Source: Devosia sp. 1566
Lineage (GTDB): Bacteria; Pseudomonadota; Alphaproteobacteria; Rhizobiales; Devosiaceae
Direction of reading: 5' to 3'
Length of the DNA stretch: 64,000 nucleotides
NCBI RefSeq assembly: GCF_004005995.1
Contig: NZ_CP034767.1
Span: forward strand, 3,760,501 to 3,824,500
In this document: piece by piece, positions 10,668 to 28,431 of the stretch
Numbering within the stretch: position 1 is the first letter of the stretch
Layout: each line of letters opens with the position of its first letter
Translations under genes and position numbers: made by a program
The notes under the pieces: generated by a model
What the model was told of the DNA's origin: nothing
What the model saw: the letters and a program-made list of their open reading frames with translations, nothing else
Database searches by the model: none

Positions 10668-10714
10668 TGTCGGAAAATCCGACATGAGCTATATATCTGT
10701 TGGATTTTTAGACA
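10668..10714. promoter_or_regulatory. Two tandem inverted-repeat operators upstream of the protease operon
   Basis: Site 1 (10668-10684) is a perfect repeat, TGTCGGA-AAA-TCCGACA. Site 2 (10698-10714), TGTTGGATTTTTAGACA, keeps the same 17-base frame with partial symmetry. Their centres are exactly 30 bases apart, about three helical turns, so two repressor dimers could sit on one face of the DNA. Site 2 ends 11 bases before the first start codon of the operon (10726). The likely ligand is the XRE-family protein encoded by the second gene, which would make the operon self-regulated. Confidence 0.65.
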
Positions 10715-10725
10715 TGAGGTCATCG

Positions 10726-11019
10726 ATGGCTGTGTCGACCATCGCAATAGAAGACGTTATCCGCGATGAGATACGGAGCGCGCAAGCTGATCGACCAACC
10801 CCAAAGGCAGGGTGGGAGCCCCAAGTCGACTCCCTGGTCATGATATCGATCGCTCTCCGCATCGAAGAGGAATTCAACGTCAAGCTACCTGAGGCGGCAA
10901 TGCCGCCAGGTGGCTTCGACGATGAGGATACATGCGTCGCTGTCTTTACCCAGCGCGTTGTGGAGTTGCTGGAAGAGCAGCAAGCGCAAGAGCAGCCGGA
11001 AGGAGAGCAAGTGTCATGA
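10726..11019 (+). CDS. Acyl-carrier-protein-like small protein
   Basis: A 97-residue acidic protein. The core PQVDSLVMISIALRIEEEF, followed by NVKLPE, resembles the helix-2 region of acyl carrier proteins, with the DSL serine (Ser36) in the position that carries phosphopantetheine. The tail is a charged Glu/Gln helix. The start at 10726 has AGGT six bases upstream and lies just after the operator pair; the frame is open back to 10513 but that part is not protein-like. The next gene overlaps its stop by ATGA. No fatty-acid or polyketide genes are near, so a carrier role in lipid synthesis is unlikely; the fold may serve as an adaptor. The ACP likeness is from motif and helix pattern only. Confidence 0.55.
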   Translation: MAVSTIAIEDVIRDEIRSAQADRPTPKAGWEPQVDSLVMISIALRIEEEFNVKLPEAAMPPGGFDDEDTCVAVFTQRVVELLEEQQAQEQPEGEQVS

Positions 11020-11396
11020 CCGCTGAACGGATCGGCTTCGCCGTTGCCGAAGATGAGAGCCTAGTTCTCGGCGCCAAGCTGCGCGAGGCGAGGGAATATG
11101 TCGGGCTTAAGCAGGACCAGGTCGCACAACACATGGAGTTGCCCCGTACGGCGGTGTCGGAAATCGAAAATGGACGCCGTGGCGTCAGCGCCATCGAGTT
11201 GAAGAAGCTTGCCCGCCTCTATCAGCGTCCAGTGACTTGGTTCACCGGCGAAGAAACAGAACCGGCAGTTCCCGCGGATGTTGCGTTCCTAGCGCGTACT
11301 GCAAGCGATCTATCGGACAACGATCGTCAGGAACTCCAGAGATTTGCAGAGTTCCTGCGTTCCAGGTCGAAGGTTTCTGGTGATGGTCGGTCGTAG
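11016..11396 (+). CDS. XRE-family transcriptional regulator
   Basis: A 126-residue DNA-binding protein. Residues 22-76 form a Cro/CI-type helix-turn-helix: LGAKLREAREYVGLKQDQVAQ, then PRTAVSEIENGRRGVS, then LKKLARLYQRPVTWFTG. The C-terminal tail is a helix (DRQELQRFAEFLRSRS). Proteins of this kind sit next to ImmA/IrrE metallopeptidases, which cut or inactivate them to release expression. GGAAGGAG lies seven bases before the ATG, a strong site. It overlaps the ACP-like gene by four bases and the ImmA gene by 14. It probably binds the operators at 10668-10714. Confidence 0.9.
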   Translation: MTAERIGFAVAEDESLVLGAKLREAREYVGLKQDQVAQHMELPRTAVSEIENGRRGVSAIELKKLARLYQRPVTWFTGEETEPAVPADVAFLARTASDLSDNDRQELQRFAEFLRSRSKVSGDGRS

Positions 11397-12411
11397 CGAG
11401 CGCGAATCCATTCTCCGCGGCATCCGCGGCGCCAAGCGGCTCCAGCGTGATCTCCGGCTCGACATTGGCGCGTCTCGCGCACAGCGCGTCGATGTCTTTG
11501 GGTGCATTGCACGAATGGGCGCGATGCTGATGTTCCAGCCGCTCGAGCCGCTCCTCGGGGCGTTCATTCGCGAAGATGGCGCTGCGGGGATAATCCTGAG
11601 TACGCGGCGCCCGCTCGGTATGCAGCGGTTTACTGCGGCTCACGAGCTCGGCCACCTGTTTCTCGGCCATGATCCGCATGCTGATGACGAGCGCATTCTG
11701 CGTCGTGCGCCCTGGGCCAATGACGCTGCGAGAGTGCCGGCTATCCCTCCCGAGGAGCGGGAAGCGGATGCATTCGCCTCGTATTTCCTGCTCCCTCCCT
11801 ATCTCATCAAGGAACAGATGGAGCTCCGCGGCTGGGAGCCCCGGGACTTTGAGCAGCCCGAAACCATCTACCAGGCGTCTCTCCGGTTCGGCACGAGCTA
11901 CCGCGCCACGGTCTTCGCGCTCGAACGGGAACACGTCATCGGTCGCAGCCTGGGCCAACAGCTCCGAAACGCACAGCCCCGCGACCTGAAACGACAGCTC
12001 CTGGGCGACTTCACGTTGAAAAACGCGCAGCGCGTCGACGTGTGGCACCTGACGGAGCGAGACCAAGGCGCCGTGATCGAAGCGAGCCGCGACGACCTCT
12101 TCCTGCTTCGACTGAAAGAGGACAGCGGAAGCGGTTACGTCTGGACATTCGACGAATTGCACGACGCCGGCTTTGTCATTCTTAGAGACGGACGGGAACC
12201 CGTTCCCTCGGGCCAGATCGGCACGCCCACCGTGCGCCGCGTTCTCGCCCATGCGGAGCGGCCTCTGGCTGGAATGCTGACCTTGCGCGAGGTGAGGTCG
12301 TGGGCGCCTGATGATGATCCGCAGCTCCTGACACTCTACTGCAAGACCGCAACGAGTGACGAGGCTGGTTTATTCGAGCCGCAGCGTGAGGAGCTTTTGG
12401 CTACCTCATGA
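11383..12411 (+). CDS. ImmA/IrrE metallopeptidase fused to a chagasin-like (I42) protease inhibitor
   Basis: A 342-residue two-part protein. The N-terminal ~215 residues are an ImmA/IrrE zinc peptidase: AAHELGHLFLGH with HELGH at 87-91 and the third ligand in EEREADAFASYFLLP at about 127. Residues ~230-335 resemble chagasin, a tight inhibitor of papain-type proteases: LFLLRLKEDSGSGYVW corresponds to the NPTTGYxW loop, and a late REVRSWAP to the RPW loop, followed by a last beta strand LLTLYCKT. The next gene encodes a papain-type protease, so the fusion joins an activating peptidase to an antidote-like inhibitor. The start at 11383 overlaps the XRE gene. The ImmA part is firm; the inhibitor part rests on two loop motifs and context. 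Confidence 0.8.
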   Translation: MVGRSERESILRGIRGAKRLQRDLRLDIGASRAQRVDVFGCIARMGAMLMFQPLEPLLGAFIREDGAAGIILSTRRPLGMQRFTAAHELGHLFLGHDPHADDERILRRAPWANDAARVPAIPPEEREADAFASYFLLPPYLIKEQMELRGWEPRDFEQPETIYQASLRFGTSYRATVFALEREHVIGRSLGQQLRNAQPRDLKRQLLGDFTLKNAQRVDVWHLTERDQGAVIEASRDDLFLLRLKEDSGSGYVWTFDELHDAGFVILRDGREPVPSGQIGTPTVRRVLAHAERPLAGMLTLREVRSWAPDDDPQLLTLYCKTATSDEAGLFEPQREELLATS

Positions 12412-13130
12412 CGCTTGATGTGCTACAAGACCTGCGGCCGGTTCTTGGACCTGTGCGCGATCAGGGCCGCCGCCCGACATGCTTGTCGTTTGCCGCCTCG
12501 GCAGCCCACGAGAAGGCGCGCGGTGACGTGGATCCACTGTGCGTAGAGTGGTTATTCTACCATGCCGCACAGCGGGCCGGCACCGGGCCTGGCGAGGGCA
12601 CCACTTTGCCGGACACCCGTCAAGCCTTGCAAGACATCGGCCAACCCCTCGAGGCGTCCTGGCCCTATGATGGTCGGCCCTATTCGGGCGCTGCATGGCG
12701 CCCTCCGGCCGTGGTGTCCCCGCTTTTTCGGTGCGGCTCGGACGGCTGCGGAACAAACCTCACGCAAATTCGGCAAGCGCTCGATGGCGGCAAGCCTGTG
12801 GTCCTTGCTCTTTTTGTTTCGGCCGCCTTCACCGCTGCGACAACTTGGCTCCGAACGGGCAACGAGATCGTCCTCCCCGATGACAGCGAGCCGATAGACC
12901 CACAACGCGGGCACGCTGTGGTCGCCGTCGGTTATGGGCGCATCGGCAGCGAGGACCTCATCCTGGTGCGCAATTCGTGGGGTCCCGCGTGGGGCGCCAG
13001 TGGGCATGCCTGGGTACGAGAAACGTATCTGACTCGCCGTATGTTCGGCGGTTTCAGCATCAGCGAAGGAGATGGCGATGTTCTACAATCCGATGCCGGC
13101 GGCATCCACGCCCGCGCGCGCGTGGGTTGA
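12408..13130 (+). CDS. Papain-family (C1) cysteine protease without propeptide
   Basis: A 240-residue protease. Gln19 (VRDQGRR) and Cys25 (TCLSFAASAA) stand at the same numbers as in mature papain, followed by His169 (RGHAVVAVGYG) and Asn189 (RNSWGPAWG). All four catalytic positions are present. There is no signal peptide and no inhibitory propeptide; the chain begins about where a mature enzyme would. It should therefore be active in the cytoplasm as made, unless the chagasin-like domain of the preceding gene holds it. It overlaps that gene by four bases (ATGA) and the next gene by 53. This arrangement suggests a regulated effector protease acting on cell proteins. Confidence 0.85.
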   Translation: MTLDVLQDLRPVLGPVRDQGRRPTCLSFAASAAHEKARGDVDPLCVEWLFYHAAQRAGTGPGEGTTLPDTRQALQDIGQPLEASWPYDGRPYSGAAWRPPAVVSPLFRCGSDGCGTNLTQIRQALDGGKPVVLALFVSAAFTAATTWLRTGNEIVLPDDSEPIDPQRGHAVVAVGYGRIGSEDLILVRNSWGPAWGASGHAWVRETYLTRRMFGGFSISEGDGDVLQSDAGGIHARARVG

Positions 13131-13845
13131 AGCTGCGGCCCGCCTCCGGGCCCAGCCAAACCTCACCTTGGGCGGCCTTATGCTTCACATCGAGCAACCC
13201 CTTGGCATCGATGCCGACGACGAGGCTGTAATCATGACGATAGACAGCTTTCTTAGGCAGCAAGGTGCACACCCCATCTCGACCGTGGCCAACACAATCT
13301 TTCCTACCGCGCTAGACCGGGGCGACGGCATTGATGCGCTGCGCGAGCGCTATATGCAGGTCTATAAGCGCCGTATGTGCACTCCAGGCGAGTGGGGTCG
13401 TTACTTCGAGCGCATGGTCAATTGGCAAGACCGCAAGGGAGGTCGTATCGACCAGCTCGCCGAGAACATCCGGATGTTAAAAGACGCCCGCGAGGGACGC
13501 TTCTATGAGAACCGTTATGAGATCATCATATCGGACCCGGCGAGAGATTTGCGCAAAGCGCTCAATCGGCAATGCTTGAGCATGATCGAGTTGAAGCCAG
13601 AGCGGAACGGCTCACTTCACATGATTGCACTGTATCGGAACCACTATTATATCCAGAAGACCTTAGGAAACTTATTGGGCTTGGGTCGCCTTTTGGAATT
13701 TATCGCCCGTGAAAGCGGCTTTGAGGTCGGCACCTTGACCGTGAACTCCACATCTGCCCGCCTCGATACTGAAGGCTGGGGCAAAGCCGACGTCGTCTCT
13801 TTGGTCGATGAGTGTGCAGCGCGGCTCGTCAGGGCGGCGGCTTAA
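13078..13845 (+). CDS. Thymidylate-synthase-like protein
   Basis: A 255-residue protein. GRIDQL at 122-127, then IRMLKDA and a SDPARDL turn, then RQCLSMIEL with Cys166, MIALYRN at 182-188 and LGNLLGLGRLLEFIA follow the order of the thymidylate synthase fold (IDQI..., PCH catalytic Cys, YQRS, LPFNI). The Cys is kept and an Asn is in place of the nucleotide-binding Asn, but the Asp of DVFLGLP and the later HxY motif are not recognisable. It may bind or modify a pyrimidine nucleotide without making dTMP. The ATG at 13078 is chosen for AAGGAG seven bases upstream; ATG 13072 is too close to it. It is the last gene of the operon and overlaps the protease gene. Confidence 0.7.
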   Translation: MFYNPMPAASTPARAWVEAAARLRAQPNLTLGGLMLHIEQPLGIDADDEAVIMTIDSFLRQQGAHPISTVANTIFPTALDRGDGIDALRERYMQVYKRRMCTPGEWGRYFERMVNWQDRKGGRIDQLAENIRMLKDAREGRFYENRYEIIISDPARDLRKALNRQCLSMIELKPERNGSLHMIALYRNHYYIQKTLGNLLGLGRLLEFIARESGFEVGTLTVNSTSARLDTEGWGKADVVSLVDECAARLVRAAA

Positions 13846-13910: not shown

Positions 13911-14594
13911 CTAGGCGAAGAGCGGGAGGGTCTCGTGCTTGTTCGCGAGCCCCAAGCCGTAGTGTGTGCTCACACCCTCCATGAATTCGGCTTGTCCACC
14001 GTAACTGGGATGCCTAACCTTCTCTGCAGTGACGCCCAGATCCTCAAGCGCCAGCTGAGCATCGCGGCCGATCGCGAGGACGCGTTGCGGTGATAGAAGG
14101 TGGATGAGCCCAACCATCACGTGCCTACTGGCTAGTCGTTCGCTGCGCGTGTGGCAGCGATTGGACATAGGTTCTCCGGGGGCATGCGGATGGAGCGGAA
14201 ACACGTTCCAAAGAAAGACGGGCTGCCTGATAGCAATCAACATCTGCCAAATCACGGTCGCAGTGCGCTCGGCAACCTCGGGGCCATTGGTAGAACGCAT
14301 TAGAGGGGGTGTGCCCAACAGGTCGGCGTGAGCGGTTAGATGTGCTTCATCGGTCAGGGCCAAACCGGTCCGGCGTCCGCCGCGGTAACCGAGATCGCGG
14401 GCCACCCAGATAGATTCAACACCTCGGTCGATCGCTGCGTCCAGAACCATCACGAGATTATGACGCCGAATCTGAGCGGCGTCGGGACGGTCGAAGTCCG
14501 AGCACAGGTCCGAGTATGGATTGAAGGCGTCTTCGAACTTCAGGGCGGCGACGAGCTCTACGAACTCTGCAGCGTTCTGTGGGTTGTTAGTCAT
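13911..14594 (-). CDS. Uracil-DNA-glycosylase-superfamily protein
   Basis: A 227-residue protein. FNPYSD at 24-29, WVARDLGYRGGRRTG near 66-80, FLWNVFPLHPHAPGE around 130 and a C-terminal KVRHPSYGG match the motif order of the uracil-DNA glycosylase fold (substrate pocket, FLWN-type core and HPSxxG loop). Members remove uracil or modified bases from DNA; this branch is poorly studied. The start ATG overlaps the stop of the MazG-like gene by four bases, so both are made from one message. It runs convergent to the thymidylate-synthase-like gene, with a 65-base gap. The job is probably base removal or sensing linked to nucleotide pools. Confidence 0.8.
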   Translation of the reverse strand: MTNNPQNAAEFVELVAALKFEDAFNPYSDLCSDFDRPDAAQIRRHNLVMVLDAAIDRGVESIWVARDLGYRGGRRTGLALTDEAHLTAHADLLGTPPLMRSTNGPEVAERTATVIWQMLIAIRQPVFLWNVFPLHPHAPGEPMSNRCHTRSERLASRHVMVGLIHLLSPQRVLAIGRDAQLALEDLGVTAEKVRHPSYGGQAEFMEGVSTHYGLGLANKHETLPLFA

Positions 14595-15817
14595 GGCAGC
14601 TCTTCAAAATCGACCGTCCGCTTGGTGAGGTCAATGATAACCGCGCCATTGCGATGCTTCTTTAGTTCCCGAAACACCCGGAACCCTTCGAGGATCGCTC
14701 GCTCCCATTGCCAGAGCGGGCGCATCTCGACTTCGTAGCCCCGTACCAGCTCATGGACAGCCTTGAGCATGCCGTAGTCGAGAGACGTAGCGTTCCGAAA
14801 CTCGGCCTGCCGTAGACCATGATTGAAGATCCACGTCGAGATGCCTTCTTCGATGATGATGGCCCGCGCGCCATCCTCGTTCTCATCGACCTCCGGCCGG
14901 CTCTTGCGTTTCAGGCGCAGCAGCGCCCGCATTGTCGGCGACCAGCCAAGGATGCCGGCAAAGGCCAGGTGAAAGACGTCGTGGTACCGGTAGTCGTCCT
15001 TTTCGTGGCGGTTGTCAGTTAACGGGCTGCCGAGATTGACGCCATTCCATCGCTGAACGACAAATGTCCGACCATTCACCGTTCTCTCGATAAACTCGAC
15101 CCGCATCTGCCGTGGCAATTGTTCATATTCGGGGAAGCCTTCGTCAAACAGAGGGCCCCAATGCTGCTGGTCCGGCCAGCGACCGAGGGTCTTGGCCACA
15201 TTATTGCGGGCCGCTTGTTCAAGGCTCACATGAGCGTCGTCGGCGGCCATGAGCAACGCGCGGAAAATCTCAACCAGATCGGCCGACAGCCGATCGCGGT
15301 TCTCCTTGATCTGCCCTTCGCTCCAATCGGCCAGGAGCACGCCAACCTTGCCTGCCAAAGCGAGCAAACGGTGTTCTACCTCCTCGCCCGCCAGGACTTC
15401 CGCGAAGGGCACTTCGGACTGCTGCAGGTCCTCGAATGTTGAGGCGCCTGATCGCCCATTGTAGTCCCAATCCTCGAGTTTTGCGGGAACGCTTCGAGCG
15501 ATCTGGCTTAGCGGCAGCTCCGCGCGAAGCGCGGCGTTCGCGAAGTACCAGAGAGCGTCGCCCAGTTCTTCGATGACCTCGTCGTGATAGGCCGCGAAGG
15601 CATCCTTGTCGCGCTGCTTTTTCTTGAGAGCACTAAGAAGGCTTCCTACCTCCCCGAACAAGCCGAGGAGCACAAAGCCCAGGCCGTCGACGCCCGACTT
15701 GTCGTTGCGGTCGGTGCGGGTGGTAAAGGTCTGGAACTCATCGAGCCCGATGGGCCGGTCGCTGTCACCGAAGAGCGAGCCTTGGTTTCTGAACAGCGCA
15801 CGACCGTCTGCAGCCAT
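14591..15817 (-). CDS. MazG-like nucleotide pyrophosphohydrolase with C-terminal extension
   Basis: A 408-residue protein. Residues 45-110 form a MazG-type helical domain with LGLFGEVGSLL (Glu56) and DEVIEELGDALWYFAN (Glu84, Asp87); the usual second Glu of EExxE is a Ser here. A second, weaker copy follows at about 155-220 (LLALAGKVGVLL, then ADLVEIFRALLMAA). The last ~170 residues (VQRWNGVNLGSPLTDNRHEKDDYRYHDVFHLAF in two pieces, EEGISTWIFNHG) resemble the extension found in long MazG proteins. The enzyme would split a (d)NTP to its monophosphate. GGAGGGGG nine bases before the ATG at 15817 is a strong site. It is divergent from the phosphoesterase gene and coupled to the UDG-like gene. Confidence 0.8.
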   Translation of the reverse strand: MAADGRALFRNQGSLFGDSDRPIGLDEFQTFTTRTDRNDKSGVDGLGFVLLGLFGEVGSLLSALKKKQRDKDAFAAYHDEVIEELGDALWYFANAALRAELPLSQIARSVPAKLEDWDYNGRSGASTFEDLQQSEVPFAEVLAGEEVEHRLLALAGKVGVLLADWSEGQIKENRDRLSADLVEIFRALLMAADDAHVSLEQAARNNVAKTLGRWPDQQHWGPLFDEGFPEYEQLPRQMRVEFIERTVNGRTFVVQRWNGVNLGSPLTDNRHEKDDYRYHDVFHLAFAGILGWSPTMRALLRLKRKSRPEVDENEDGARAIIIEEGISTWIFNHGLRQAEFRNATSLDYGMLKAVHELVRGYEVEMRPLWQWERAILEGFRVFRELKKHRNGAVIIDLTKRTVDFEELP

Positions 15818-15946
15818 ATTGATTCCCCCTCCAAGAATCTTGCCGCAGCCCAACCATTGACGCAAGTGAATCGGGGGGTGAATTCTCCAACATGGGAAGT
15901 GGCTAAGCATAGTCTGCGACCGCGATTGGCTGCACGAGGAGATTTG

Positions 15947-18118
15947 ATGGATTCGACTTCAGCGACGTTCCTGCACGTTACGGATGCTCACATCGCTTAT
16001 GCGGGGACGGTATTGGAGCGGGATGACCGCAAGAACCCGGTCGTCGGTCTTCCGACACAAACAAGGGAGGCTGCTCTTCGGCAGGTCTTCGAGCGCCTAG
16101 CAGAGCGTTTGAAGCAAGGAGATCGCACACTCGATGGAGTGATCTTCTCGGGGGACGCACAGGACCGCGGAAGGCAGGGCGGCCATGAACTGCTGCTCGA
16201 TCTGCTGCTCAACTATTTCGGCCCCTTCGGCATAACGGAAGAGCGCATCGTCGCTACCCCAGGCAATCATGATGTCGATCGCGCCTATGATCCGGGAGTG
16301 GCAGAGCGTTACAAGGATTTCTGTGCAACTTGGCGCGATCGTGGATGTGTCGTGCCCTGGATCGATGGTGTCGATGAGGCCGGTCCCCCCGCACGCCATT
16401 CGCTTGTCGATGCCGACGGCCGCTGGGCGATTTTCCCGATCAACTCGAGCAACTGGTGCCATGCCGCTGCAGTTCTTCCTGAACCACTCGCAACCGTGTG
16501 GTCGCAGTTGCCTTACCTCGCCGCCGGGGGGAACAAGCAGATCGAGACCGACCTGCAAAAACAACTCGACGCGCTTGCCCGCTACGACATGGCGAGGATC
16601 TCGGAACCGCAGCTGGAGCAGGTGAGAAAGCTCGTTGAGGCAACGCCAGGGCCGGAGCATGGGCAGCAGCTCCGTATCGCGGTGCTACACCACCATTTGC
16701 GGGCGCCGAGTCTTAGAGAGGAGATCAAGGCGTTTGCAGACATCTCCAATCTTGAGCAGGTCAGAGGGTTTCTTCGGGACCGCGCCTTCGACGTCGTCGT
16801 TCACGGCCACAAGCATGAACATGCAGCCCAATTCGATCACATGTACGATCATGGCGGCGACAATGCCCGACGGGTATTGGTCGTTTCTGGCGCCACCTTC
16901 GAGGCCGACCGCGAAAGCGACGCCGTGCGTCTGCTGACTTTCGAAGGATTGCCCTATACCCCGTCAATTCGCATAGAGCCAATTCCGCTGCAGCGCGGCG
17001 GAGTCGATGTACCGGCCAAGCCGGCCATCACGAAGCGCCTCTGGGCGTCGGAAACCCTCACCGACGGACCAACAACCGTTCAAGGCACCGACATCGACGA
17101 AGTCTATGAGCGCGTGGTGGAGGTGGCGCGTCTGGAGGCCGAGGGCAATACGCTGGTCGTTCATCTCGATCTGCCATCCCATGAGACGGATAGCTTGCCT
17201 TTGCCCAGCAGCTATCCGATGGCTGAGCCGCTCGAGCCTGGCGCTCGCCAAGAATGGCTACGCGAACTCGTCGGCTGGTGGCAACTCAGCCGGTCCAAAC
17301 TGGAACAGCGTATGCCCTTTGTCCACGGCACCCGGCTACGCCGCTATGGCGGCAAGATCGATCAGATCGAGCGCATCAAGAAACTTCTCAGGCAAAAGGC
17401 CAGCACGCGCGCGCTCGCGGTACTAGTGGATCCGTTTCGCGACTTTACAGCCGACGGAAGCGGCGAAGAGTTTGCCTCGTTCAGTCTCGTCGAGTTCAAG
17501 CGGAGAAATCTTGGAAACGGGCGGAGCTCGGTGGAGGTAATCGCGTTCTACAGAGCACAAGAGTTTGCGCGATGGTGGCCTATAAACGTCGCTGAGCTGA
17601 GATCGCTGCAGGTCGAGGTATGCCGCCATCTCAATTTCGATGCAGGCAGAATCACTACTATTGCTGCCGATGCCCGAACGCATTCCCGTAGTCCCACACA
17701 GGTTGCTATGCCCATCGTGGATCGTTGGCTCGACCAGGCGCCCGAGCGTTTGCATGCCCTTGCCAATGCGCTCGTTCAGAGGGGCGCTCGAAACGACAAA
17801 GAGCGCGCAGCGCTTGAGGGATGGGGTCGCTGCCTTTCTGAGCTTGAGGATGTGGCAAAGAACTATAATCCGGATGGCGTGCCTGTCGCCGTAGAGGGTC
17901 TTGAGGTTCTGGCTTCGTACGTGCAGACTAGCGTCGAGGGTGACCCCGCTCTCACTAAACTGGTGCGCGAACTGACCAGACTCGCCGAGGACAATCGGGG
18001 TTTCGAGCACGGTGTACGGGATCGATCAGCCTTCGACACCTGGTCCAAGCGAACGCTGATATCCATCACGGACCTTCGCGAAATCACGGCTCAGCGCATC
18101 TCGTCAAGCACCGAGTAG
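15947..18118 (+). CDS. Calcineurin-like metallophosphoesterase fused to a thymidylate-synthase-like domain
   Basis: A 723-residue protein. Residues 8-330 hold the metal motifs in order: HVTDAHI, SGDAQDRG, PGNHDVD (Asn107-His108), HHHLRAP and HGHKHEH, so a two-metal phosphoesterase. Residues ~440-650 parallel the protein at 13078: GKIDQI at 469-474 with IKKLL, then VDPFRDF, VEVIAFYRA (Tyr535-Arg536) and PINVAELRSLQ (Asn547), then GRITTIAADAR. The position of the thymidylate synthase Cys has no Cys, so this copy may sense a nucleotide rather than modify it. The ATG at 15947 has GAGGAGA before it. It is divergent from the MazG-like gene over a 129-base gap. The fold match of the C-terminal half is by motif order. 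Confidence 0.75.
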   Translation: MDSTSATFLHVTDAHIAYAGTVLERDDRKNPVVGLPTQTREAALRQVFERLAERLKQGDRTLDGVIFSGDAQDRGRQGGHELLLDLLLNYFGPFGITEERIVATPGNHDVDRAYDPGVAERYKDFCATWRDRGCVVPWIDGVDEAGPPARHSLVDADGRWAIFPINSSNWCHAAAVLPEPLATVWSQLPYLAAGGNKQIETDLQKQLDALARYDMARISEPQLEQVRKLVEATPGPEHGQQLRIAVLHHHLRAPSLREEIKAFADISNLEQVRGFLRDRAFDVVVHGHKHEHAAQFDHMYDHGGDNARRVLVVSGATFEADRESDAVRLLTFEGLPYTPSIRIEPIPLQRGGVDVPAKPAITKRLWASETLTDGPTTVQGTDIDEVYERVVEVARLEAEGNTLVVHLDLPSHETDSLPLPSSYPMAEPLEPGARQEWLRELVGWWQLSRSKLEQRMPFVHGTRLRRYGGKIDQIERIKKLLRQKASTRALAVLVDPFRDFTADGSGEEFASFSLVEFKRRNLGNGRSSVEVIAFYRAQEFARWWPINVAELRSLQVEVCRHLNFDAGRITTIAADARTHSRSPTQVAMPIVDRWLDQAPERLHALANALVQRGARNDKERAALEGWGRCLSELEDVAKNYNPDGVPVAVEGLEVLASYVQTSVEGDPALTKLVRELTRLAEDNRGFEHGVRDRSAFDTWSKRTLISITDLREITAQRISSSTE

Positions 18119-20614: not shown

Positions 20615-21596
20615 TTAAGCGGCGAGTTTGCGGTGCTGCAAGCGCCGATGCTGGATGGTCTGGCGTTTGATCCTTTCACGCTGTTTGATGATGGCTGCGG
20701 CCCTGCCGAAGTAGGCGTCGGCCGGGGTCACGTTGGCGAGGCTCTCGTGGTAGCGCCGGTGATTATAGTGCTCGATGAAGGCGCCGATTTGGGCCTCCAG
20801 ATCGCCGGGCAGGAAGTAGTTCTCGAGCAGGATGCGGTTCTTCATGGTGCTGGTGCCAGCGCTCGATCTTGCCCTGGGTCTGGGGATGCATTGGAGCACC
20901 CCGGACATGGCTCATGGCATTGGCTTGGATATAATCCGCAAGTTCTCCAGCGATGTAGCACGGGCCATTGTCGCTGAGCAGCCGGGGCTTGTGCTGCACA
21001 TGGACCCGATCGCTGCCTGAGGCAGCGAGGGCCATGTCCAGCGTGTCTGTGACGTCCTGGGCTCGCATGGTGCTACACAGCTTCCAGGCGATGATGTAGC
21101 GCGAGTAATCATCGAGCACGGTGGACAGGTACATCCAGCCCCAGCCGATGATCTTGAAGTAGGTGAAGTCGGTCTGCCACATTTCGTTGGGCCGCACCGT
21201 CTTGGTGTGGAATGCATCGGCGGCCTTGATCACCACATAGGCCGGGCTGGTGATCAGGTCGTGGGCCTTGAGAAGCCTGTAAACGCTGGCTTCTGAGACG
21301 AAGTAGCGCTTCTGGTCAGTGAACTGCACAGCCAGCTCGCGCGGTGATAGCTCGGACTCTTCCAGCGCCATCTCGATAATCTGGTCATGGATGGCCGTCG
21401 GGATCCGGTTCCACACCCGGCTGGGCGCAGATGGTCGATCTTCCAGTGCCTCAGGGCCGCCACCGAGGTAGCGGTCATACCAGCGATAAAAGGTCCGGCG
21501 CGGGATGCCCAGCCGGTCCAGAGTGCGCGTTGCCGGCAGGTGCGACTGCTCGACCAGATTGATGATCTCGAGCTTTTCGGATGCGGGATATCTCAT
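20615..21596 (-). pseudogene. IS3-family transposase OrfB, disrupted by a one-base insertion
   Basis: The catalytic (DDE, rve) half of an IS3 transposase. The first part, from the ATG at 21596, has a helix-turn-helix region (GIPRRTFYRWYDRY) and the integrase core with EMWQTDFTYF, STVLDDYSRYI and LLSDNGPCY. The reading breaks after KIERWHQ near 20852 and resumes in another phase with TMKNRILLENYF and IEHYNHRRYHESL up to the stop at 20615. One extra base (a C in the coding strand) around 20850-20852 explains the break; removing it restores KIERWHQTMKNR. The final catalytic Glu lies in the KIERW part. It overlaps OrfA by ATGA. Confidence 0.85.
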
Positions 21597-21967
21597 TCTT
21601 GGTCGTCCCCATCCGCGATCATACTTTTTTTGAGCAGACGGTTTTCTAGCGTCAGGTCGGCCACGCATTCCTTGAGCGCACCGGCCTCGCGGCGCAGATC
21701 CTTGACCTCGTCGCTGGTCGCAGCACGGGAAGTATCGCCCGCCAGGCGACGCTTGCCGGCTTCCATGAACTCCTTCGACCAGGTGTAAAACAGGCTTTGC
21801 GCTATGCCTTCCTTGCGGCACAGCTCGGCTATGCTGTCTTCTCCACGCAGGCCCTCGAGAACGATCCGGATTTTGTCTTCGGCTGAAAAGTGCCGGCGCG
21901 TCGCCAGGCGAATGTCCTTCACCACCTGCTCGGCAGGCTTCTTGGTGTTCGAGGATTTGGCAGTCAT
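21593..21967 (-). CDS. IS3-family transposase OrfA
   Basis: A 124-residue DNA-binding subunit. RRHFSAEDKIRIVLEGLRGE, then IAELCRKEGIAQSLFYTW, form the helix-turn-helix that recognises the element ends. The C terminus (LRREAGALKECVADLTLENRLLKKS) is the leucine-rich coiled coil used for multimer formation with OrfB. The start at 21967 has GAAGGAA six bases upstream; a longer frame to 21997 is possible. It appears intact. Confidence 0.88.
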   Translation of the reverse strand: MTAKSSNTKKPAEQVVKDIRLATRRHFSAEDKIRIVLEGLRGEDSIAELCRKEGIAQSLFYTWSKEFMEAGKRRLAGDTSRAATSDEVKDLRREAGALKECVADLTLENRLLKKSMIADGDDQE

Positions 21968-22156
21968 CTTGGTTCCTTCGTCATCCGACGAGACCAAAAC
22001 ACTCCTTAAAGCTCAACCCTAAATCTGGGACATATGTGCTGACGGCAGACAGACTGGACCACGTACCGGCAATCACAGACACCGGCACTCTTCGACTTCG
22101 AACCCCAGCGAGCAGACATCGTCCTGCGCGCTCAGTAGCCCGAGGGAAGACCCAGG

Positions 22157-24337
22157 TTACTGAGCATCCGGGAGATCATGCAACTGACTGGTTGCGGACT
22201 CGCGCACGAGCAGGTCCCAGCGGAAGAGCGCAACCGACGCCGGTGTGGCTGGCGCTGGGAAGACGTCTCGCGCCTTTGTTCCTGATGCCGAGAGCGTAAG
22301 CAGAGTCGTCAGCAGGGGGTTGGGCGGCGGATCGCCAGCTTTAGCTCTTGGCAGCCCCAGTTGTCTGAGATCCGAAAGGTCGAGTGGACGCTGGTGCGCA
22401 ACTGCATCGGCACTGATGACCATAAGCATCTCAGGGCCGTAGACCGACCTGAAGCCTCCATCCGTGAGGGGGCATTCCGAACAGAACATCGGATCCGGTT
22501 CCCACATCGTCACTCTCGCGTCCGGGGGGTTAAGACGCCTGTAGAAGACCTTGATCCCAAAGTTTGCATCCACGTAGATGACGTTGACATCCTTTGCGAC
22601 GGTCAGGCCTGTGGCCACCACCCTGACTTGAAGCCTGTCGCACTGCTTGAGGGTTGAGCGAACCGCCAGCGGCACTGGATCTAGGTAACGCGCCTCCGCG
22701 CACTCCTGCTGTGGCTTGTATGAGTTTCCTGCACCGGCAATTGCTTCAGCCGTCCAAAGACTCGCGGGGTCCGATGGGCGCAAAATTATGTCGAGTGCCA
22801 ACTGCGGACCGCCTCCACCCTGCTGTTCATAGAGAGCATTGGCAATCTTGATGAGATTCTGGGCTTTTGCCGCGCGATGCAGAATACCCGCGAGCTCCAG
22901 TGCATCTTCCCTATCGTCTCCGGAAGGGCGCCATCCGATATTGGACGGTTGCTCCGTGTCTCTCCGAAAGCCTTCGCTCCCGGCGAACCAGATCCTTCCG
23001 TTTGACAGGCCAACCATTAGGTCGGGGGAGCCAGAATCAAGTCCAATGGGCGTACTCAGGTTGCTTGAAGCAAACGTCGCCGCAGCGGTGAGCACGGCGG
23101 TCAGGGCTTCAGGTGAGCTCCCATCGAGAGGGATAGGTGCCGACAGTCGCAGGACGGTATCTAGCGACGGGGCAACGATGCGCGCGTACCGCGAACGTGC
23201 AGTGAAGCCGGCTGCGTCGCCGATGAGCACTGCACAGGTATCATCGCCGGTGACACATGTGGCCGAGACCGGCTCGAAGGTCGATGTGACCGCATCGGCC
23301 ACCCGCACGCGGACGTGTCCGAGAGACTGGTCGTTGAATGCACCTGGGTCATCGAAGACGGCGAGGATTGACCCCGGCGCGAGCCCTTGCACCAGGCCGG
23401 CGGACAGGACTCCATCGACGATCGGAAACTGCCGCACGCCCCCCGGTAGCTCCGCTTCATCAACCAGACCGGCGGTTTCGATGTAGGGTGTCTGGATCGT
23501 CCCGTCGCCCACGATGCCGGAATCGGCCATGTCCATCAGCACGCCCTCATAGAGCTGCTGATAGCTGACGCCGGCGCTCCCGTGCTTCAGCCTGTCGACG
23601 AGCTTGGTTGTGAATATGCCGTGCCAGACGGGTGCCCCGTCGGGGCCGGGTCCGAAATTGTACTCCCAGGCCCGTTCGTAAGCCTGTGCCGCATAAAAGG
23701 CGACGAGGTACCCAGCATCCTCCCCAAGCTCCGATGTGCTGGTCGTCTCCGTCATGCTCACCCTGGCTGGTTCACCCGCAGGGGGCACGTCCTTGCCGCG
23801 AAGCCGCGGGTCCGGAGCGCGCGCTCCGGATGCCGAAAAGCAGCTGTCCATGATGAGCCACACATCAACACCACGGCTTCGGATGGCGTCCAGAAAGGTC
23901 CCGATGTCGTCATCGAGCAGCGCATTCGCTATCCCCCCACGGTTGTTGTAGTGAGCATCGATGGGGAGAAATGTTTCGTCGAAACCGTCGCCCTCGTCAG
24001 CGTTCTCGTCGGAGACGCGAGTGCCGTGTCCGCTCATGTAGATCATGACGGAGTCGCCCGGCTTGATCGCGGTCAGGGTCACTTCGAACACGTTCTCGAT
24101 ATTCTCGAGTGATGGCCGTCGGGCACCATCGATAGGAGCGTCCGTCAGAACCTGAACGTTCGAATACTGGAGGTGAGGGAGGACGGAGAGCATCAGTTCG
24201 ACGTCGTTCCCCGGACCGTTCAGGTCATCCATCGCTTCGTAGTCGGCCACGCCGATGAGGACGGCGTACCGCTCCGCAAGGGCAGGAGAGGTTAGAGCGG
24301 CAAGGACTATCGCCAGAAGAACCCTGAAGATCATCAT
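22157..24337 (-). CDS. Exported caspase-like (C14) protease
   Basis: A 726-residue protein. Residues 1-21 form a signal peptide (MMIFRVLL...LTSPALA). The caspase fold follows at once: YAVLIGVADY, the Asn-Asp of GPGNDVELM, VMIYMSGHGTR with His104, and VWLIMDSCFSAS with Cys166, so the catalytic pair is complete. The remaining ~450 residues are beta-rich and not recognised. The start at 24337 has AGAGAGG upstream; an open frame to 24901 overlaps the next gene and is not protein-like. It is divergent from the second caspase-like gene (24484) over 146 bases. The signal peptide places it in the periplasm or outside, unusual for a suicide protease. Confidence 0.85.
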   Translation of the reverse strand: MMIFRVLLAIVLAALTSPALAERYAVLIGVADYEAMDDLNGPGNDVELMLSVLPHLQYSNVQVLTDAPIDGARRPSLENIENVFEVTLTAIKPGDSVMIYMSGHGTRVSDENADEGDGFDETFLPIDAHYNNRGGIANALLDDDIGTFLDAIRSRGVDVWLIMDSCFSASGARAPDPRLRGKDVPPAGEPARVSMTETTSTSELGEDAGYLVAFYAAQAYERAWEYNFGPGPDGAPVWHGIFTTKLVDRLKHGSAGVSYQQLYEGVLMDMADSGIVGDGTIQTPYIETAGLVDEAELPGGVRQFPIVDGVLSAGLVQGLAPGSILAVFDDPGAFNDQSLGHVRVRVADAVTSTFEPVSATCVTGDDTCAVLIGDAAGFTARSRYARIVAPSLDTVLRLSAPIPLDGSSPEALTAVLTAAATFASSNLSTPIGLDSGSPDLMVGLSNGRIWFAGSEGFRRDTEQPSNIGWRPSGDDREDALELAGILHRAAKAQNLIKIANALYEQQGGGGPQLALDIILRPSDPASLWTAEAIAGAGNSYKPQQECAEARYLDPVPLAVRSTLKQCDRLQVRVVATGLTVAKDVNVIYVDANFGIKVFYRRLNPPDARVTMWEPDPMFCSECPLTDGGFRSVYGPEMLMVISADAVAHQRPLDLSDLRQLGLPRAKAGDPPPNPLLTTLLTLSASGTKARDVFPAPATPASVALFRWDLLVRESATSQLHDLPDAQ

Positions 24338-24483
24338 CGAGAGCACCTCTCTTGCAGATAAATGCAACTTTACTCGAGCGCCTGATATCTTGAACAGAGG
24401 TAGAATCCTGCGCCCAGCACTGAATAGTTTTGGCGATGGACCTTGCCCGTTCGCTCTGTCGGGGCGTATCGTATTGACGATCA

Positions 24484-27400
24484 ATGGGGCGGAAGATGCG
24501 GGTCCGGTTCTTCGTACTATTGGCGATGTTTTGTGGCGCGGCCCAGCTCGTTTCGCCGGCCGCTGCACAATCGGTGACTGAGCAGTTGGTTGGACCGGCC
24601 GACGTGCTCGCGGAGCTTCCCGAGCATGAACTCGTCGTGGTTCAGCAGGCTCTTGCCGCCGCCGGCTTTGATGTCGGATCGGTCGACGGGATACTTGGTC
24701 CCAAGACGAGGGCTGCGGTACGGAGCTATCAGAGCAGCAAGGGCATCCAGGCAACCGGCTTGCTCTCCATCGGCGAGGCGTTCTCGCTGGTGCAGGCCTG
24801 GGGGGGACCCGATGGAGTCCGGGCCATCGAGATGGGGACATTCGGAGACAGGCTTGTAGAGGCATATTTTTCGGGAGAGCCATTTGACGATCAGGAGACA
24901 ATCCTTGACGTCTTGCGTAACAACGACGTGTGGCACTACCTCCTTAAAAGCGTTGGTGACGGTTCCCGCGCCCGGGCAACGGTTCTGGCCACGTCCGAGC
25001 GCTATCTGGAATTTTCCGACCTTCTCGACCTCGATTCCGAAGCCGCCCAGGATGTCCTATCGGCACTGGTCTGGACGTATCAGCAGCTGGACGAGAAGGC
25101 CCAGGCGCGCTGGGAGGCGCTTACCGGGGGACAGTTCGACCTCCTTCATGGGGCGATCGCGGAGGCGAACGGGGATCCAGACGCGAGAGGCTGGTATGAG
25201 CGTGCGGCGGCCAGTTCGTTCGCGCGACAGCGCATTACCGAGATCGACAGCGGAGACTCCTCAGGTCTCGAGCAGCCTGACTGCGCCGTAATGTCACCGG
25301 CTCCCAAACACGCTGACGTCGACCTGCTTGCACAGAGCGGCGAGGTGTTTCGTGCGGGTGAGCCCGTTAAGCTCGTTTGGATGGTTCCCAATCTTGAGCA
25401 GGCATGCGTTGCCCCGTCCTATCTGGTTGTCGCTATGCCGAGTGCCGTCAGGTTTGAAGGAGGGGGATTCTACGTCCTCGCCCCACATGAACCTGCGCCT
25501 TTCGGAATCTCGTTCGCGAACGAGAGCATGCGAGTAGTTGTGCCGCTCCACCTTATGAGGTCTGCGGTCAGCGAAGCGACCTTGCGGATTTTCCAGCTCG
25601 GCACTTTCGACGTTCGCTGGACCGTCGTAGAGGCCGGAGAGATAGAGGCGGCGTTCGCAAGTGACAACACCTCGATTGTGGTGACTCATGGTAGCCCGAG
25701 CGTCGTCATCCAAGATCCCTTCCCCGCTGAAACGCCGATAGACTCGAGGGTGTCCCCGGATGGGGAATTCGAGCTGAGGCAGTTTCGGCGGCATTACGAC
25801 ATCATTTCGCGTTCCAGCGGTTCGCTGGTTTATACAGGGGACGGCTACGATGCGCGGTTTTCCCCGACAGGGCGCTTCGTTCATTCTTTTCGTAACGATG
25901 ACAGTCAGTTTCAGGTGGTCGACGTTTCGGCAGCCGAACTGGTGTTCGAACTCAATCGTGGGGTCGGCGCGAGCCGCGGAGAATACGTCCAGGCGGTGGG
26001 TTGGTCCGCTGGCGATAGTTTCTTGGTTCTGGGCTTCGAAGCGGCGGGCGGAATTGGCTTCCTGCAGACGTTCCTGAATAGGCCGCTGCTCTACAGCTCC
26101 GAGGGGTGCGGCGCGTGTGACTCGTGGAGCTCGTCGACTGTAGTTCTGGACCTCGAGAATTCTCTCGTGTCGATGACAGGCTGGGCTGGCGGATGGACGC
26201 CCCACAGCCTCGCGTTCGACCTGGACTTGTCCTCCTCGTCGAGAGACTTGTCGCTCGTCCTGCGCCACCTCGTCGACCCAAAGTCGCTGCCCGTCTTCGG
26301 TGACGTTGAGAATTGGAACATGAGCGGGCGCCCGCGGTACACCTACAACGCTTTCACCGACCCCAATCCGCGCCCAATGCGGTCTTCGCGGGGGAGCGAC
26401 CAGGCGGCTCTCGCCGACGAGCTCGAGCCGGAGGCAGACCTCCTTGTCGCGGACGTCCCCGAGGGGCTGCTTCGCGGCGTCTTTGAAATGGATCTGTCGG
26501 ACGGGGTCAACAGAAGCAGTCGGTTGGAGAAACGCCTTGCAGATTTTGGGATCACAGTGTTGCCGGCCGGCGAAGTCGAGGTCGACGTGGTGGACTTCGA
26601 ACCGTCCGCATACACTCTCTCAACCGCGGCGCCCGCGGTTCGCGCCGGCCTCATCGATGCGTCTGAGGGCGAAGCGCTAAATGCAGCAGCGGAGGCTTGG
26701 CACAGCACCACCAAAATGTGTCTTGTGATGCGCGCCTCAAGCGCGACAGTGTGGAGTTGGAGGGCGGGCGACGAATTCTATCAAGTCGTTCAGTACATTT
26801 GCTATGAGAGCACGGGCTACATCGCCAATGGGCGAGCCGCTCTGCTCTACTTGCGAGACGATGCGTTTCATGCATTTGCGCTCGGGGACACCGACGGTGA
26901 CAGCGACTTCGTAGACCCCGACGAAGGTCTTGATTCCGCCGTTGACGACAACCCTGAGGCGGTCGTTGAAAAGATTCGTCCACTGGCCACCAACGAACGG
27001 CTACGGATCTTCCGCCCCTGCGACGACCTGCTCGCCTTCGTCAGTCTCAACAGGCGGCTGGTGTTGTTCGATGCCGTCGAAAGAGCGGTTCGGTTCGATG
27101 TGCCAGTCGTTGGGGCCGACCTAGTCTCAGAAGTTCGCTGCCTCGACGGGCGCAACCAGCTTCTCCAGGTCAACAGCGACGGTCAGCTCTTCGTGCGCGA
27201 TATCGCCGACGGCCAGCTCGTCGTCCGCGGCTACTACGTCGACGACGAGCTTGCCTGGTACGACGACAGTCTCGCGTTTGACTCGACCTTCGAGGGTGCC
27301 CGGTACGTCAATCTGAAATTTCCCGGCGACAACAACCTCTATCGCCTCGATCAGTTTGCGCGCGAGCTGCGACGCCCCGGCTTGCTCGATGGCCTATCGG

Positions 27401-28431
27401 GGGGCGAGACGGTGGGCACCGCACTAAGCGTGACGGCTCCGCCGGTCGTCAGCGTCGGTGCCCTGGCAAGCTCCGCGGAGGTGGCCACACTGACCGTCGA
27501 GGGAAACTCCGGCGCCGAGACGGTCGAGGTCTTCCGGGACGGAATGCCAGTGCTTTCACGGGCGCTTGGAGCCGACCCGCGCGCCGCGTTCGAAGTTCCT
27601 CTGCTCCCGGAGACTCGGTGGATCACCGTGCGCGCGCAGGCCGCGAATGGGCTCTACAGTGCCGCCGTCTCAACGCCTGTTGCCGGGAGCGACGCGGCGA
27701 AGGCAGGCCGGCTTTTCTACGTTGGACTCGGCACCGACACCTACTCGGATCAGAGGCTGGAAGACCTCGACTTTGCAGTTTCGGACGCTTCGAGCCTGCA
27801 GCTTACGCTTGAGACTGCGGGTTCGACCTACTACCGCACCATAACGGGCAAGACGTTCGTTAATGTCGAAAGCTTCTCCGAGCCTCTACAGCGGGAGTTT
27901 GACATCATCGCGCACGCCGCAACTGCGGAGGACACGCTTGTTCTCTATGTCTCCGGCCATGGAGTGCTCGGTTCAAATGGTGAGCTGCGCCTGGCGTCGG
28001 GCGCGACCGACCTCGACGACATCGAGGAGACGAGCCTCAGTGTGTCCGACCTCGCCACGATGCTCGATGGCATTCCCTCACGCGTCTTCATTTTCCTCGA
28101 CGTATGCCACGCCGGTGCAATCGAGGGCGTAACCAACGACAACGCCGTCGAGCAGCTTCTGCAGGGCACGGTGAAACCGGTTGTCATCATGTCGGCATCG
28201 AAGGGCCGTCAGTTCAGCAGGGAAGGGGTGGCCTTCGGCGGTGGTGCCTTCACCTCGGCACTGAAAGCCATCCTGACGGATCTCAGCGGAACCGACTTTA
28301 GCGGCAACGGCACCCTCGAGCTCAGCGAGATCTACCCGCTTCTTAAGTCACAGGTCATCCGCCAGACAGCTGGCCAACAAACGCCATGGATCGCGCGATC
28401 GGACATGCCGGGGGAGATCCCCGTCTTCTGA
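24484..28431 (+). CDS. Large exported protein: peptidoglycan-binding domain, long middle, C-terminal caspase domain
   Basis: A 1315-residue protein. After a signal peptide ending near AAAQS, residues ~50-95 form a PG_binding_1 domain (VVQQALAAAGFDV, DGILGPKTRAAVRSYQ). Residues ~310-1060 are a long beta-rich region, possibly propeller-like (DSRVSPDGEFELR, ARFSPTGRFVHSF). The last ~250 residues are a caspase domain: RLFYVGLGTDTY, VLYVSGHGVLG with His1159, and FIFLDVCHAG with Cys1208. The domain order suggests cell-wall anchoring of a protease. An ATG at 24496 is a second possible start. It is followed after 45 bases by the astacin-like gene and is divergent from the other caspase-like gene. Confidence 0.85.
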   Translation: MGRKMRVRFFVLLAMFCGAAQLVSPAAAQSVTEQLVGPADVLAELPEHELVVVQQALAAAGFDVGSVDGILGPKTRAAVRSYQSSKGIQATGLLSIGEAFSLVQAWGGPDGVRAIEMGTFGDRLVEAYFSGEPFDDQETILDVLRNNDVWHYLLKSVGDGSRARATVLATSERYLEFSDLLDLDSEAAQDVLSALVWTYQQLDEKAQARWEALTGGQFDLLHGAIAEANGDPDARGWYERAAASSFARQRITEIDSGDSSGLEQPDCAVMSPAPKHADVDLLAQSGEVFRAGEPVKLVWMVPNLEQACVAPSYLVVAMPSAVRFEGGGFYVLAPHEPAPFGISFANESMRVVVPLHLMRSAVSEATLRIFQLGTFDVRWTVVEAGEIEAAFASDNTSIVVTHGSPSVVIQDPFPAETPIDSRVSPDGEFELRQFRRHYDIISRSSGSLVYTGDGYDARFSPTGRFVHSFRNDDSQFQVVDVSAAELVFELNRGVGASRGEYVQAVGWSAGDSFLVLGFEAAGGIGFLQTFLNRPLLYSSEGCGACDSWSSSTVVLDLENSLVSMTGWAGGWTPHSLAFDLDLSSSSRDLSLVLRHLVDPKSLPVFGDVENWNMSGRPRYTYNAFTDPNPRPMRSSRGSDQAALADELEPEADLLVADVPEGLLRGVFEMDLSDGVNRSSRLEKRLADFGITVLPAGEVEVDVVDFEPSAYTLSTAAPAVRAGLIDASEGEALNAAAEAWHSTTKMCLVMRASSATVWSWRAGDEFYQVVQYICYESTGYIANGRAALLYLRDDAFHAFALGDTDGDSDFVDPDEGLDSAVDDNPEAVVEKIRPLATNERLRIFRPCDDLLAFVSLNRRLVLFDAVERAVRFDVPVVGADLVSEVRCLDGRNQLLQVNSDGQLFVRDIADGQLVVRGYYVDDELAWYDDSLAFDSTFEGARYVNLKFPGDNNLYRLDQFARELRRPGLLDGLSGGETVGTALSVTAPPVVSVGALASSAEVATLTVEGNSGAETVEVFRDGMPVLSRALGADPRAAFEVPLLPETRWITVRAQAANGLYSAAVSTPVAGSDAAKAGRLFYVGLGTDTYSDQRLEDLDFAVSDASSLQLTLETAGSTYYRTITGKTFVNVESFSEPLQREFDIIAHAATAEDTLVLYVSGHGVLGSNGELRLASGATDLDDIEETSLSVSDLATMLDGIPSRVFIFLDVCHAGAIEGVTNDNAVEQLLQGTVKPVVIMSASKGRQFSREGVAFGGGAFTSALKAILTDLSGTDFSGNGTLELSEIYPLLKSQVIRQTAGQQTPWIARSDMPGEIPVF

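Follow-up and report, generated by a model that had tools for sequence, protein, structure and literature searches.

A cassette of about seven neighboring genes in the bacterium Devosia sp. 1566 is probably, to judge from its sequence, an undescribed defense against viruses. It lies in a stretch of 64,000 nucleotides (contig NZ_CP034767.1 of assembly GCF_004005995.1, positions 3,760,501 to 3,824,500; hereafter the window, whose own numbering we use). The cassette encodes an acyl carrier protein (ACP)-like protein, a repressor of the XRE family, an ImmA/IrrE metallopeptidase joined to a chagasin domain, a papain-type (C1) protease, a thymidylate synthase (TS)-like protein, a protein of the uracil-DNA glycosylase (UDG) superfamily and a MazG-domain protein. 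We put at roughly 0.45 the probability that it is an immune operon, both mobile and inducible, that works through chemistry at C5 of pyrimidines. What the sequences show is the composition and order of the cassette, the key residues that its proteins keep, the covariation of the protease with the chagasin domain, the exchange of the UDG-like protein for a member of another family (PF18723) and an operator upstream of the first gene; the reactions, the trigger, the inhibition of the protease and the defense itself are inferred from these.

Related loci were taken from 110 sources (the window and L001 to L109). Removal of L001, which is the window itself, and of L016 and L017, C1-protease matches on Deinococcus and Priestia plasmids that are without a TS gene, left 107; a further 15 with less than 3.3 kb of upstream or less than 2.5 kb of downstream sequence were dropped, and 92 loci were counted. 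Genes were scored with our own profiles, which were seeded from some of the scored loci and applied with low bit-score floors for small proteins. The TS-like gene is accompanied by ACP, XRE and ImmA genes in all 92 loci and by a MazG gene in 87. A UDG-like gene is present in 79 and a PF18723 gene in 13; no locus has both and none has neither. The TS-like proteins fall into 59 clusters at 90% identity, 37 at 70% and 14 at 50%, and the records come from Alpha- and Betaproteobacteria, Planctomycetota, Acidobacteriota, Cyanobacteriota, Actinomycetota and one haloarchaeon, to which Gammaproteobacteria are added if Woeseiaceae belong there, as we take them to do.

A first-pass annotation of the window had described a five-gene operon from 10668 to 13845 as a single co-regulated set that combines a repressor/metallopeptidase switch with a protease-inhibitor pair. 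The five overlapping, co-directional genes behind an operator pair are indeed there, and the set is conserved (the switch in 92 of 92 loci, the pair in 87 of 92). The conserved unit does not end at 13845, however, but extends to the UDG-like and MazG/MazG_C genes; the start of the ACP gene probably needs correction too, as set out below. Also overlooked were the phosphopantetheinyl transferase (PPTase) genes that lie near some loci, the likeness of the switch to CapH and CapP, and a connection of the set with thymidine hypermodification in phages. The features of the region are as follows.

10668..10684, unstranded: operator 1, perfect palindrome TGTCGGAAAATCCGACA
10698..10714, unstranded: operator 2, imperfect copy of operator 1
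10726..11019, plus strand: ACP-like protein, 97 aa, with the phosphopantetheine-site Ser within a VDSL motif
11016..11396, plus strand: XRE repressor, CapH-like (Pfam, PADLOC)
11383..12411, plus strand: ImmA/IrrE metallopeptidase (HELGH) with a C-terminal chagasin (I42) domain, of a cysteine-protease inhibitor family, at about 12085-12318
12408..13130, plus strand: C1 papain-type protease; Gln19, Cys25, His169 and Asn189 invariant in 14 aligned relatives
13072..13845, plus strand (start may be 13078): TS-fold protein; Cys168, Arg189 and Asn200 conserved
13911..14594, minus strand: UDG-superfamily protein, its place taken by PF18723 in other loci
14591..15910, minus strand: MazG NTP-pyrophosphohydrolase domain with MazG_C (PF18722) (Pfam, family profiles)
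15947..18118, plus strand: calcineurin-like phosphoesterase with a C-terminal TS-like domain, accessory and not core

The first five open reading frames (ORFs) run in one direction with overlaps of 4, 14, 4 and 59 bp; the UDG-like and MazG/MazG_C genes follow directly downstream of the TS-like gene, convergent to it and overlapping each other by 4 bp. The Pfam E-values for the operon are 0.0015 (PP-binding), 1.1e-12 (HTH_31), 4.3e-12 (Peptidase_M78), 5.2e-5 (Inhibitor_I42), 4.5e-10 (Peptidase_C1) and 0.0025 (Thymidylat_synt), the PP-binding, I42 and TS matches scoring below their own gathering thresholds. The ACP gene probably starts at 10726 rather than at 10684, an earlier in-frame ATG between the operator copies, because 10726 is where its relatives start, and with this start the two operators precede the operon. 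No tRNA gene was found in the 64-kb window, and GC content, taken in 2-kb steps, has no outlier at this stretch.

The TS-like protein and its partners

The TS-like protein is predicted to have the TS fold (predicted local distance difference test [pLDDT] 92.1; predicted template-modeling [TM] score, pTM, 0.92). The 50 fold matches listed, all at 13-18% identity, comprise thymidylate synthases, MilA (TM 0.64 by query), the phage deoxycytidine monophosphate (dCMP) hydroxylase AfhB (TM 0.68 by target) and a riboflavin-dependent monooxygenase with dCMP; thus, neighbors in the TS fold carry out other chemistry. Cys168 and Asn200 are invariant in an alignment of 47 rows, and Arg189 is kept in 45. 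Given the invariant active-site Cys and Asn, we reject the view, put forward in the first-pass annotation, that the protein merely senses a nucleotide; it is very likely an enzyme. Its residues make it probably something other than an ordinary ThyA. At the positions of D169, Y209 and R127 of the Escherichia coli enzyme, which were mapped by hand and for the latter two only approximately, Asp is found in 2 of the 47 rows, Tyr in none and Arg in none. We take these residues to be a folate contact, a contact to deoxyuridine monophosphate (dUMP) and a contribution of the partner subunit, respectively. On two Rhizobium ruizarguesonis plasmids (L024, 8651-9485; L025, 8644-9403) the TS-like gene is annotated as two ORFs, the other core genes being whole.

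The family profile of the ACP-like protein matches a solved ACP-like protein (2.2e-5), and the serine is present in 92 of 92 loci, within DS in 89; the other three, judged by eye, have ES (two loci) or SS (one). AcpS or another PPTase is encoded near nine of the 92. On a haloarchaeal plasmid (L012, 3600-7041), tmk, PF18723 and PPTase genes lie upstream of the ACP gene, which may make this copy a more complete form of the pathway.

The UDG-like protein retains Asp67 and His195-Pro-Ser in all of 30 aligned rows, which are presumably the motif-A Asp and the HPS motif of UDGs. The Pfam UDG match is below gathering for the window protein (0.0031) and stronger for that of L011 (3.4e-6); TM0511 is a weak match by sequence in the PDB (0.013). 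The UDG-like gene of Sphingomonas paeninsulae (L020, 8762-9106) is annotated as shorter than those of its relatives and is perhaps decaying. A gene for dCTP deaminase lies near 11 of the 92 loci.

A single position in the cassette seems to be taken by either of two different base-acting folds, UDG-like or PF18723. In a rapidly built tree of 49 non-redundant TS rows (47 labelled, two, L005 and L008, by hand), whose long branches leave deep joins unsure, the distribution of the two calls for at least four changes (mean with shuffled labels, 10.7), and starred branches make two of these unavoidable. Pfam names PF18723 the helical domain of 5-hydroxymethyl-deoxyuridine (5-hmdU) DNA kinase, and homologues are found in 473 phage records. 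In phage Montesquieu the PF18723 relative adjoins a gene for a TS/pyrimidine hydroxymethylase, and in phage LuckyBarnes it shares one run of genes with a TS gene, two glycosyltransferase genes standing between them. One viral relative is extended at its N terminus, and in the extension a P-loop-like motif can be made out by eye. Matches of the PF18723 profile to aquaporins were taken as chance. The first five matches of the predicted PF18723 model (pLDDT 92.2) are two chains of the PaMx-type phage 5-phosphomethyl-deoxyuridine (5-PmdU) glycinyltransferase, two chains of a 3-methyladenine glycosidase, and AGOG. This weak resemblance to the phage 5-PmdU glycinyltransferase and to helix-hairpin-helix (HhH) glycosylases is suggestive only; PF18723 is perhaps an HhH glycosylase-fold relative of the glycinyltransferase.

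The switch, the protease and the chagasin domain

The pattern TGTC-N9..11-GACA occurs less than 200 bp upstream of the ACP gene in 66 of the 92 loci, as compared with 21 of 1840 random 210-bp windows from the same loci, and a second operator copy is also present in L028 and L029. Operator 1 is flanked by a TTGTCG box and a TATATA box (spacing, 17 bp), a candidate promoter identified by eye. With up to two mismatches the motif has 10 matches in the window (3.96 expected), among which operator 1 is the sole perfect one. With up to one mismatch the strict motif is found at one place in the 4.17-Mb genome, as is a backwards control pattern; hence the count shows a single site but, taken alone, no enrichment.

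In PADLOC the XRE protein matches capH (5.7e-15) and the ImmA protein capP (2e-19), with weaker matches to RmrA and PDC-M69 models. The best solved relatives of the ImmA family are CapP (best PDB match, 7t5t) and PprI/IrrE, and its HExxH motif is kept in all 92 loci. According to the accounts of them in PMC13373217 and PMC10904395, CapP and PprI are proteases that are activated by single-stranded DNA and cleave their own repressors, and CapH together with CapP controls immune operons.

The protease and the chagasin domain occur together in 87 loci and are both absent from five, and neither is ever found alone, a correlation that counts as one event for the reason given below. The chagasin family profile matches amoebiasin-2 in the PDB (3e-9), and what we take to be the chagasin loop motifs are kept, G[YF]xW in 85 of 87 and R[PS]W in 78 of 87. 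Among the 87 proteases the catalytic motifs QG....C, HA[VLMI] and NSW[GA] are found in 82, 85 and 85, respectively. By eye, protease and ImmA-chagasin are both without a signal peptide. Cassettes that are without the protease retain ACP, XRE, ImmA, TS and the nucleotide enzymes, which does not support the central place that the first-pass annotation had given the protease.

A search with the protease alignment alone, made in 385 genomes of the class, gave matches in 29 genomes (34 places, 30 loci given). In all six loci at E<1e-30 the protease adjoins ImmA-chagasin, in keeping with the co-occurrence that had been predicted. The other 24, weaker loci (L116-L139) were rejected as cassettes because nothing in their short flanks matched ImmA at more than 20 bits; one of them, L124, has a faint chagasin match. 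A TS gene lies within the same short locus in five of the six strong cases. In the sixth (genome G097) the contig carries a partial TS gene at a distance of about 2.1 kb, with the order rearranged and AcpS between. The two loci from this genome, L006 and L115, comprise TS (partial), AcpS, XRE, ImmA-chagasin, C1, MazG and PF18723 genes.

The cassette is rare. Any TS-like match was found in only seven of the 385 class genomes, two of which (G097 and G228) have partial matches only, and a strong one (E<1e-50) in four of 398 genomes of a phylum sample, the window included. Both rules of co-occurrence hold in the phylum sample too: L147 has protease, chagasin and UDG, and L148 and L149 have PF18723 and MazG and are without protease and chagasin. 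Twenty weak TS matches in that sample (L150-L169) were set aside, since here too the short flanking sequences gave no match to ImmA of more than 20 bits.

A possible mechanism and its alternatives

The course of events that we infer is the following. The XRE protein would hold the operon repressed through the operator pair until the CapP-like ImmA cleaved it in response to single-stranded DNA or to some other signal of an infection, as the examples of CapH/CapP and PprI/DdrO suggest. The TS-fold cysteine would attack C6 of a pyrimidine nucleotide, and C5 would become a nucleophile. The C5 electrophile, or else the acceptor, would probably arrive bound to the ACP through its phosphopantetheine arm; this is the boldest step, proposed because the TS-like protein does not retain the canonical contacts to folate and sugar. 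The product or its precursors would be handled by MazG/MazG_C, and the product within DNA by the UDG-like protein or, in other loci, PF18723. The modified base might poison foreign DNA, with the glycosylase clearing host DNA, or it might be a lesion that is cut. The protease would be an added arm, inactive under the chagasin domain of ImmA and freed once ImmA is engaged. In its most specific form the scheme would have an ACP-delivered group and the TS-fold enzyme place a C5-modified pyrimidine in replicating foreign DNA, the UDG-like or PF18723 protein and MazG act on that same base as lesion-maker or antidote, and the ImmA-leashed protease provide a second output; that every part of this is right is doubtful.

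Several observations weigh against an immune operon of this kind. The curated family closest to the TS-like protein is the methanogen-type TS (TIGR03283; 9.5e-15 and 54.6 bits, below the cut-off of 174.55), which may deviate at these very positions for reasons of its own, so the loss of those residues is no proof of a new electrophile. The core conserved in the 92 loci is without an ACP-loading enzyme. The presence of protease and chagasin changes only once on the TS tree, and their perfect correlation is therefore not to be over-counted. The PF18723 model has no match at E<=0.001 among 105 in the PDB, and one of the three phage regions opened, that of a Nodularia phage, has no TS gene near its PF18723 relative. 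The operator pattern is absent upstream of ACP in 26 of the 92 loci, and the UDG-like and MazG genes, being on the opposite strand, are outside the reach of the single operator. Finally, of the 180 relatives that a profile scan found in genome contigs only the 80 best were kept, and a single cluster, mostly Sphingomonadales by record titles, accounts for 35 of the 92 loci.

The alternative that survives best is that the cassette protects mobile elements from restriction, hypermodifying the T or U of its own plasmid or island such that this survives in the host, with XRE/ImmA switching on at single-stranded entry. When the plasmid collection was searched at the protein level, 20 records matched the TS-like gene and 18 the protease; 12 of the 20 are typed as conjugative, one as mobilizable and seven as non-mobilizable, and relaxase or type IV secretion system genes lie beside some copies. 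Moreover, a TS with a partner of the PF18723/aGPT-PPlase type is a phage hypermodification pairing, and the trigger of CapP-type proteases is single-stranded DNA. Nonetheless, we regard this alternative as unlikely. The glycosylase-like protein of 79 loci would excise the mark, which is odd for a marking system; chromosomal copies exist (the window, L032 and L044); and defense-type genes such as Shedu and caspase-family genes are neighbors of some plasmid copies. Of 17 cassette-bearing plasmid loci that were opened, 11 have a gene of defense or toxin-antitoxin type nearby, as judged by eye from annotations, with no control; two of the 11 (L011 and L027, the latter from Sphingobium sp. TA15) are on closely related plasmids. 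These neighbors include Shedu, AbiEii, caspase-family, CHAT, HEPN/nucleotidyltransferase and VapC. Caspase-family genes also adjoin the cassette on Rhizobium and Sinorhizobium plasmids (L018, L021, L024 and L025). In the window, a transposase (rve integrase core) lies beside two large caspase-domain (Peptidase_C14) genes at 20763-28431.

It is quite unlikely that the protease is instead a toxin, with ImmA-chagasin as both sensor and antitoxin and the TS-like protein sensing a nucleotide, so that infection leads to shutdown of the cell. Protease and chagasin are never apart and the inhibitor loops are kept (in 85 and 78 of 87), as this model would have it, but cassettes without the protease retain the remaining genes, and the Cys and Asn that are invariant in 47 TS rows would be needless in a sensor. 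Stress-induced nucleotide housekeeping, in which damage would induce dTMP-like synthesis by the TS-like protein, trimming of deoxynucleoside triphosphates (dNTPs) by MazG and dCTP deaminase and removal of uracil by UDG, to the benefit of mobile-element replication, is likewise improbable. The UDG-like protein, MazG, TS and the dCTP deaminase of 11 loci do all act around uracil or dNTPs. Such housekeeping would nevertheless leave the ACP, the PPTase, the protease and the inhibitor unexplained, the TS-like protein is without the canonical dUMP-contact residues, and the Devosia genome holds another TS-family match (a 267-aa frame). That the genes are chance or passenger neighbors in a variable island has next to no probability: the window is island-like, with its transposase and caspase-domain genes, but a core found in 92 of 92 loci, in 37 clusters and several phyla, with the operator in 66, refutes it.

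A phage origin was also rejected: the window's TS-like and UDG-like proteins have no match in 50,697 phage records, and viral contigs gave two TS relatives. The phosphoesterase next to the cassette (15947-18118) was excluded from the core, a relative being near only 11 of the 92 loci. Its C-terminal TS-like domain has a profile E-value of 7.7e-7; where the proteins of L021, L025 and L026 read FASFCLVEF the window protein reads FASFSLVEF and has no Cys there. The relatives in L021, L025 and L031 are accompanied by a second, longer TS gene.

Relation to known systems

Like the CapH/CapP systems found beside operons of the cyclic-oligonucleotide-based antiphage signaling system (CBASS) and Bub operons, the cassette has a helix-turn-helix repressor and an ImmA/IrrE metallopeptidase. 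Unlike them, it has an ACP gene ahead of the switch, its remaining genes are not CBASS genes and, where the protease is present, ImmA bears a chagasin domain. When the eight genes were run against PADLOC, capH and capP were the only CBASS components matched, with no CD-NTase/cyclic-nucleotide effector; the other matches were to RmrA, HTH_VI, control proteins and PDC-M69A/B and, weakly, of the phosphoesterase to PDC-S60/Effector. For each of the ACP, C1, TS, UDG and MazG genes PADLOC 2.0.0 gave no family at E<=0.1.

Phage thymidine hypermodification, which employs a TS/pyrimidine hydroxymethylase, aGPT-PPlase/PF18723 and a 5-hmdU DNA kinase, likewise pairs a TS-fold enzyme with PF18723, as 13 of the 92 cassettes do. 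The cassette differs in having a UDG-like protein (79 of 92), an ACP, the ImmA switch and the protease, and a 5-hmdU kinase is absent from its conserved set, although tmk adjoins it in one haloarchaeal locus. The fold of its TS-like protein is shared with the CMP hydroxymethylase MilA, AfhB and methanogen-type TS, from which it is set apart by its partner ACP. Its chagasin (I42) domain and C1 protease match known pairs in family and loop motifs; unlike the inhibitors of those pairs, the one encoded here is fused to a metallopeptidase of the repressor-cleaving type.

The DefensePredictor study (PMC13092281) reports TS and 5-hmdU kinase domains as newly validated in phage defense in E. coli, and MazG, MazG-C and UDG in systems that it predicted but did not test; of the experimental work considered, it comes closest to supporting our reading. 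Its systems, which include TS, dNMP kinase and 5-hmdU kinase, have domain classes in common with the cassette; its main text has no mention of ACP, acyl carrier, chagasin, ImmA or papain, and an overlap of single genes is possible. The literature searched contained no description of the gene set, though part of it may have been mentioned earlier, and brought chagasin and ImmA together only in the context of Chagas disease. We file the cassette with the CapH/CapP-controlled, nucleotide-centered mobile systems, as a member of that kind and not as something categorically new.

What we describe, then, is a system of several genes whose range extends from Alphaproteobacteria to a haloarchaeon and in which the exchange of UDG-like protein for PF18723 is an equivalence that can be tested directly and the inhibitor fused to a sensor would be a simple design for a leashed protease. 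If our reading is correct, the cassette would tie carrier-protein chemistry, as in fatty-acid and polyketide synthesis, to the chemistry of nucleotides or DNA bases, and it would provide a cellular counterpart, under DNA-damage control, to the thymidine-hypermodification enzymes of phages.

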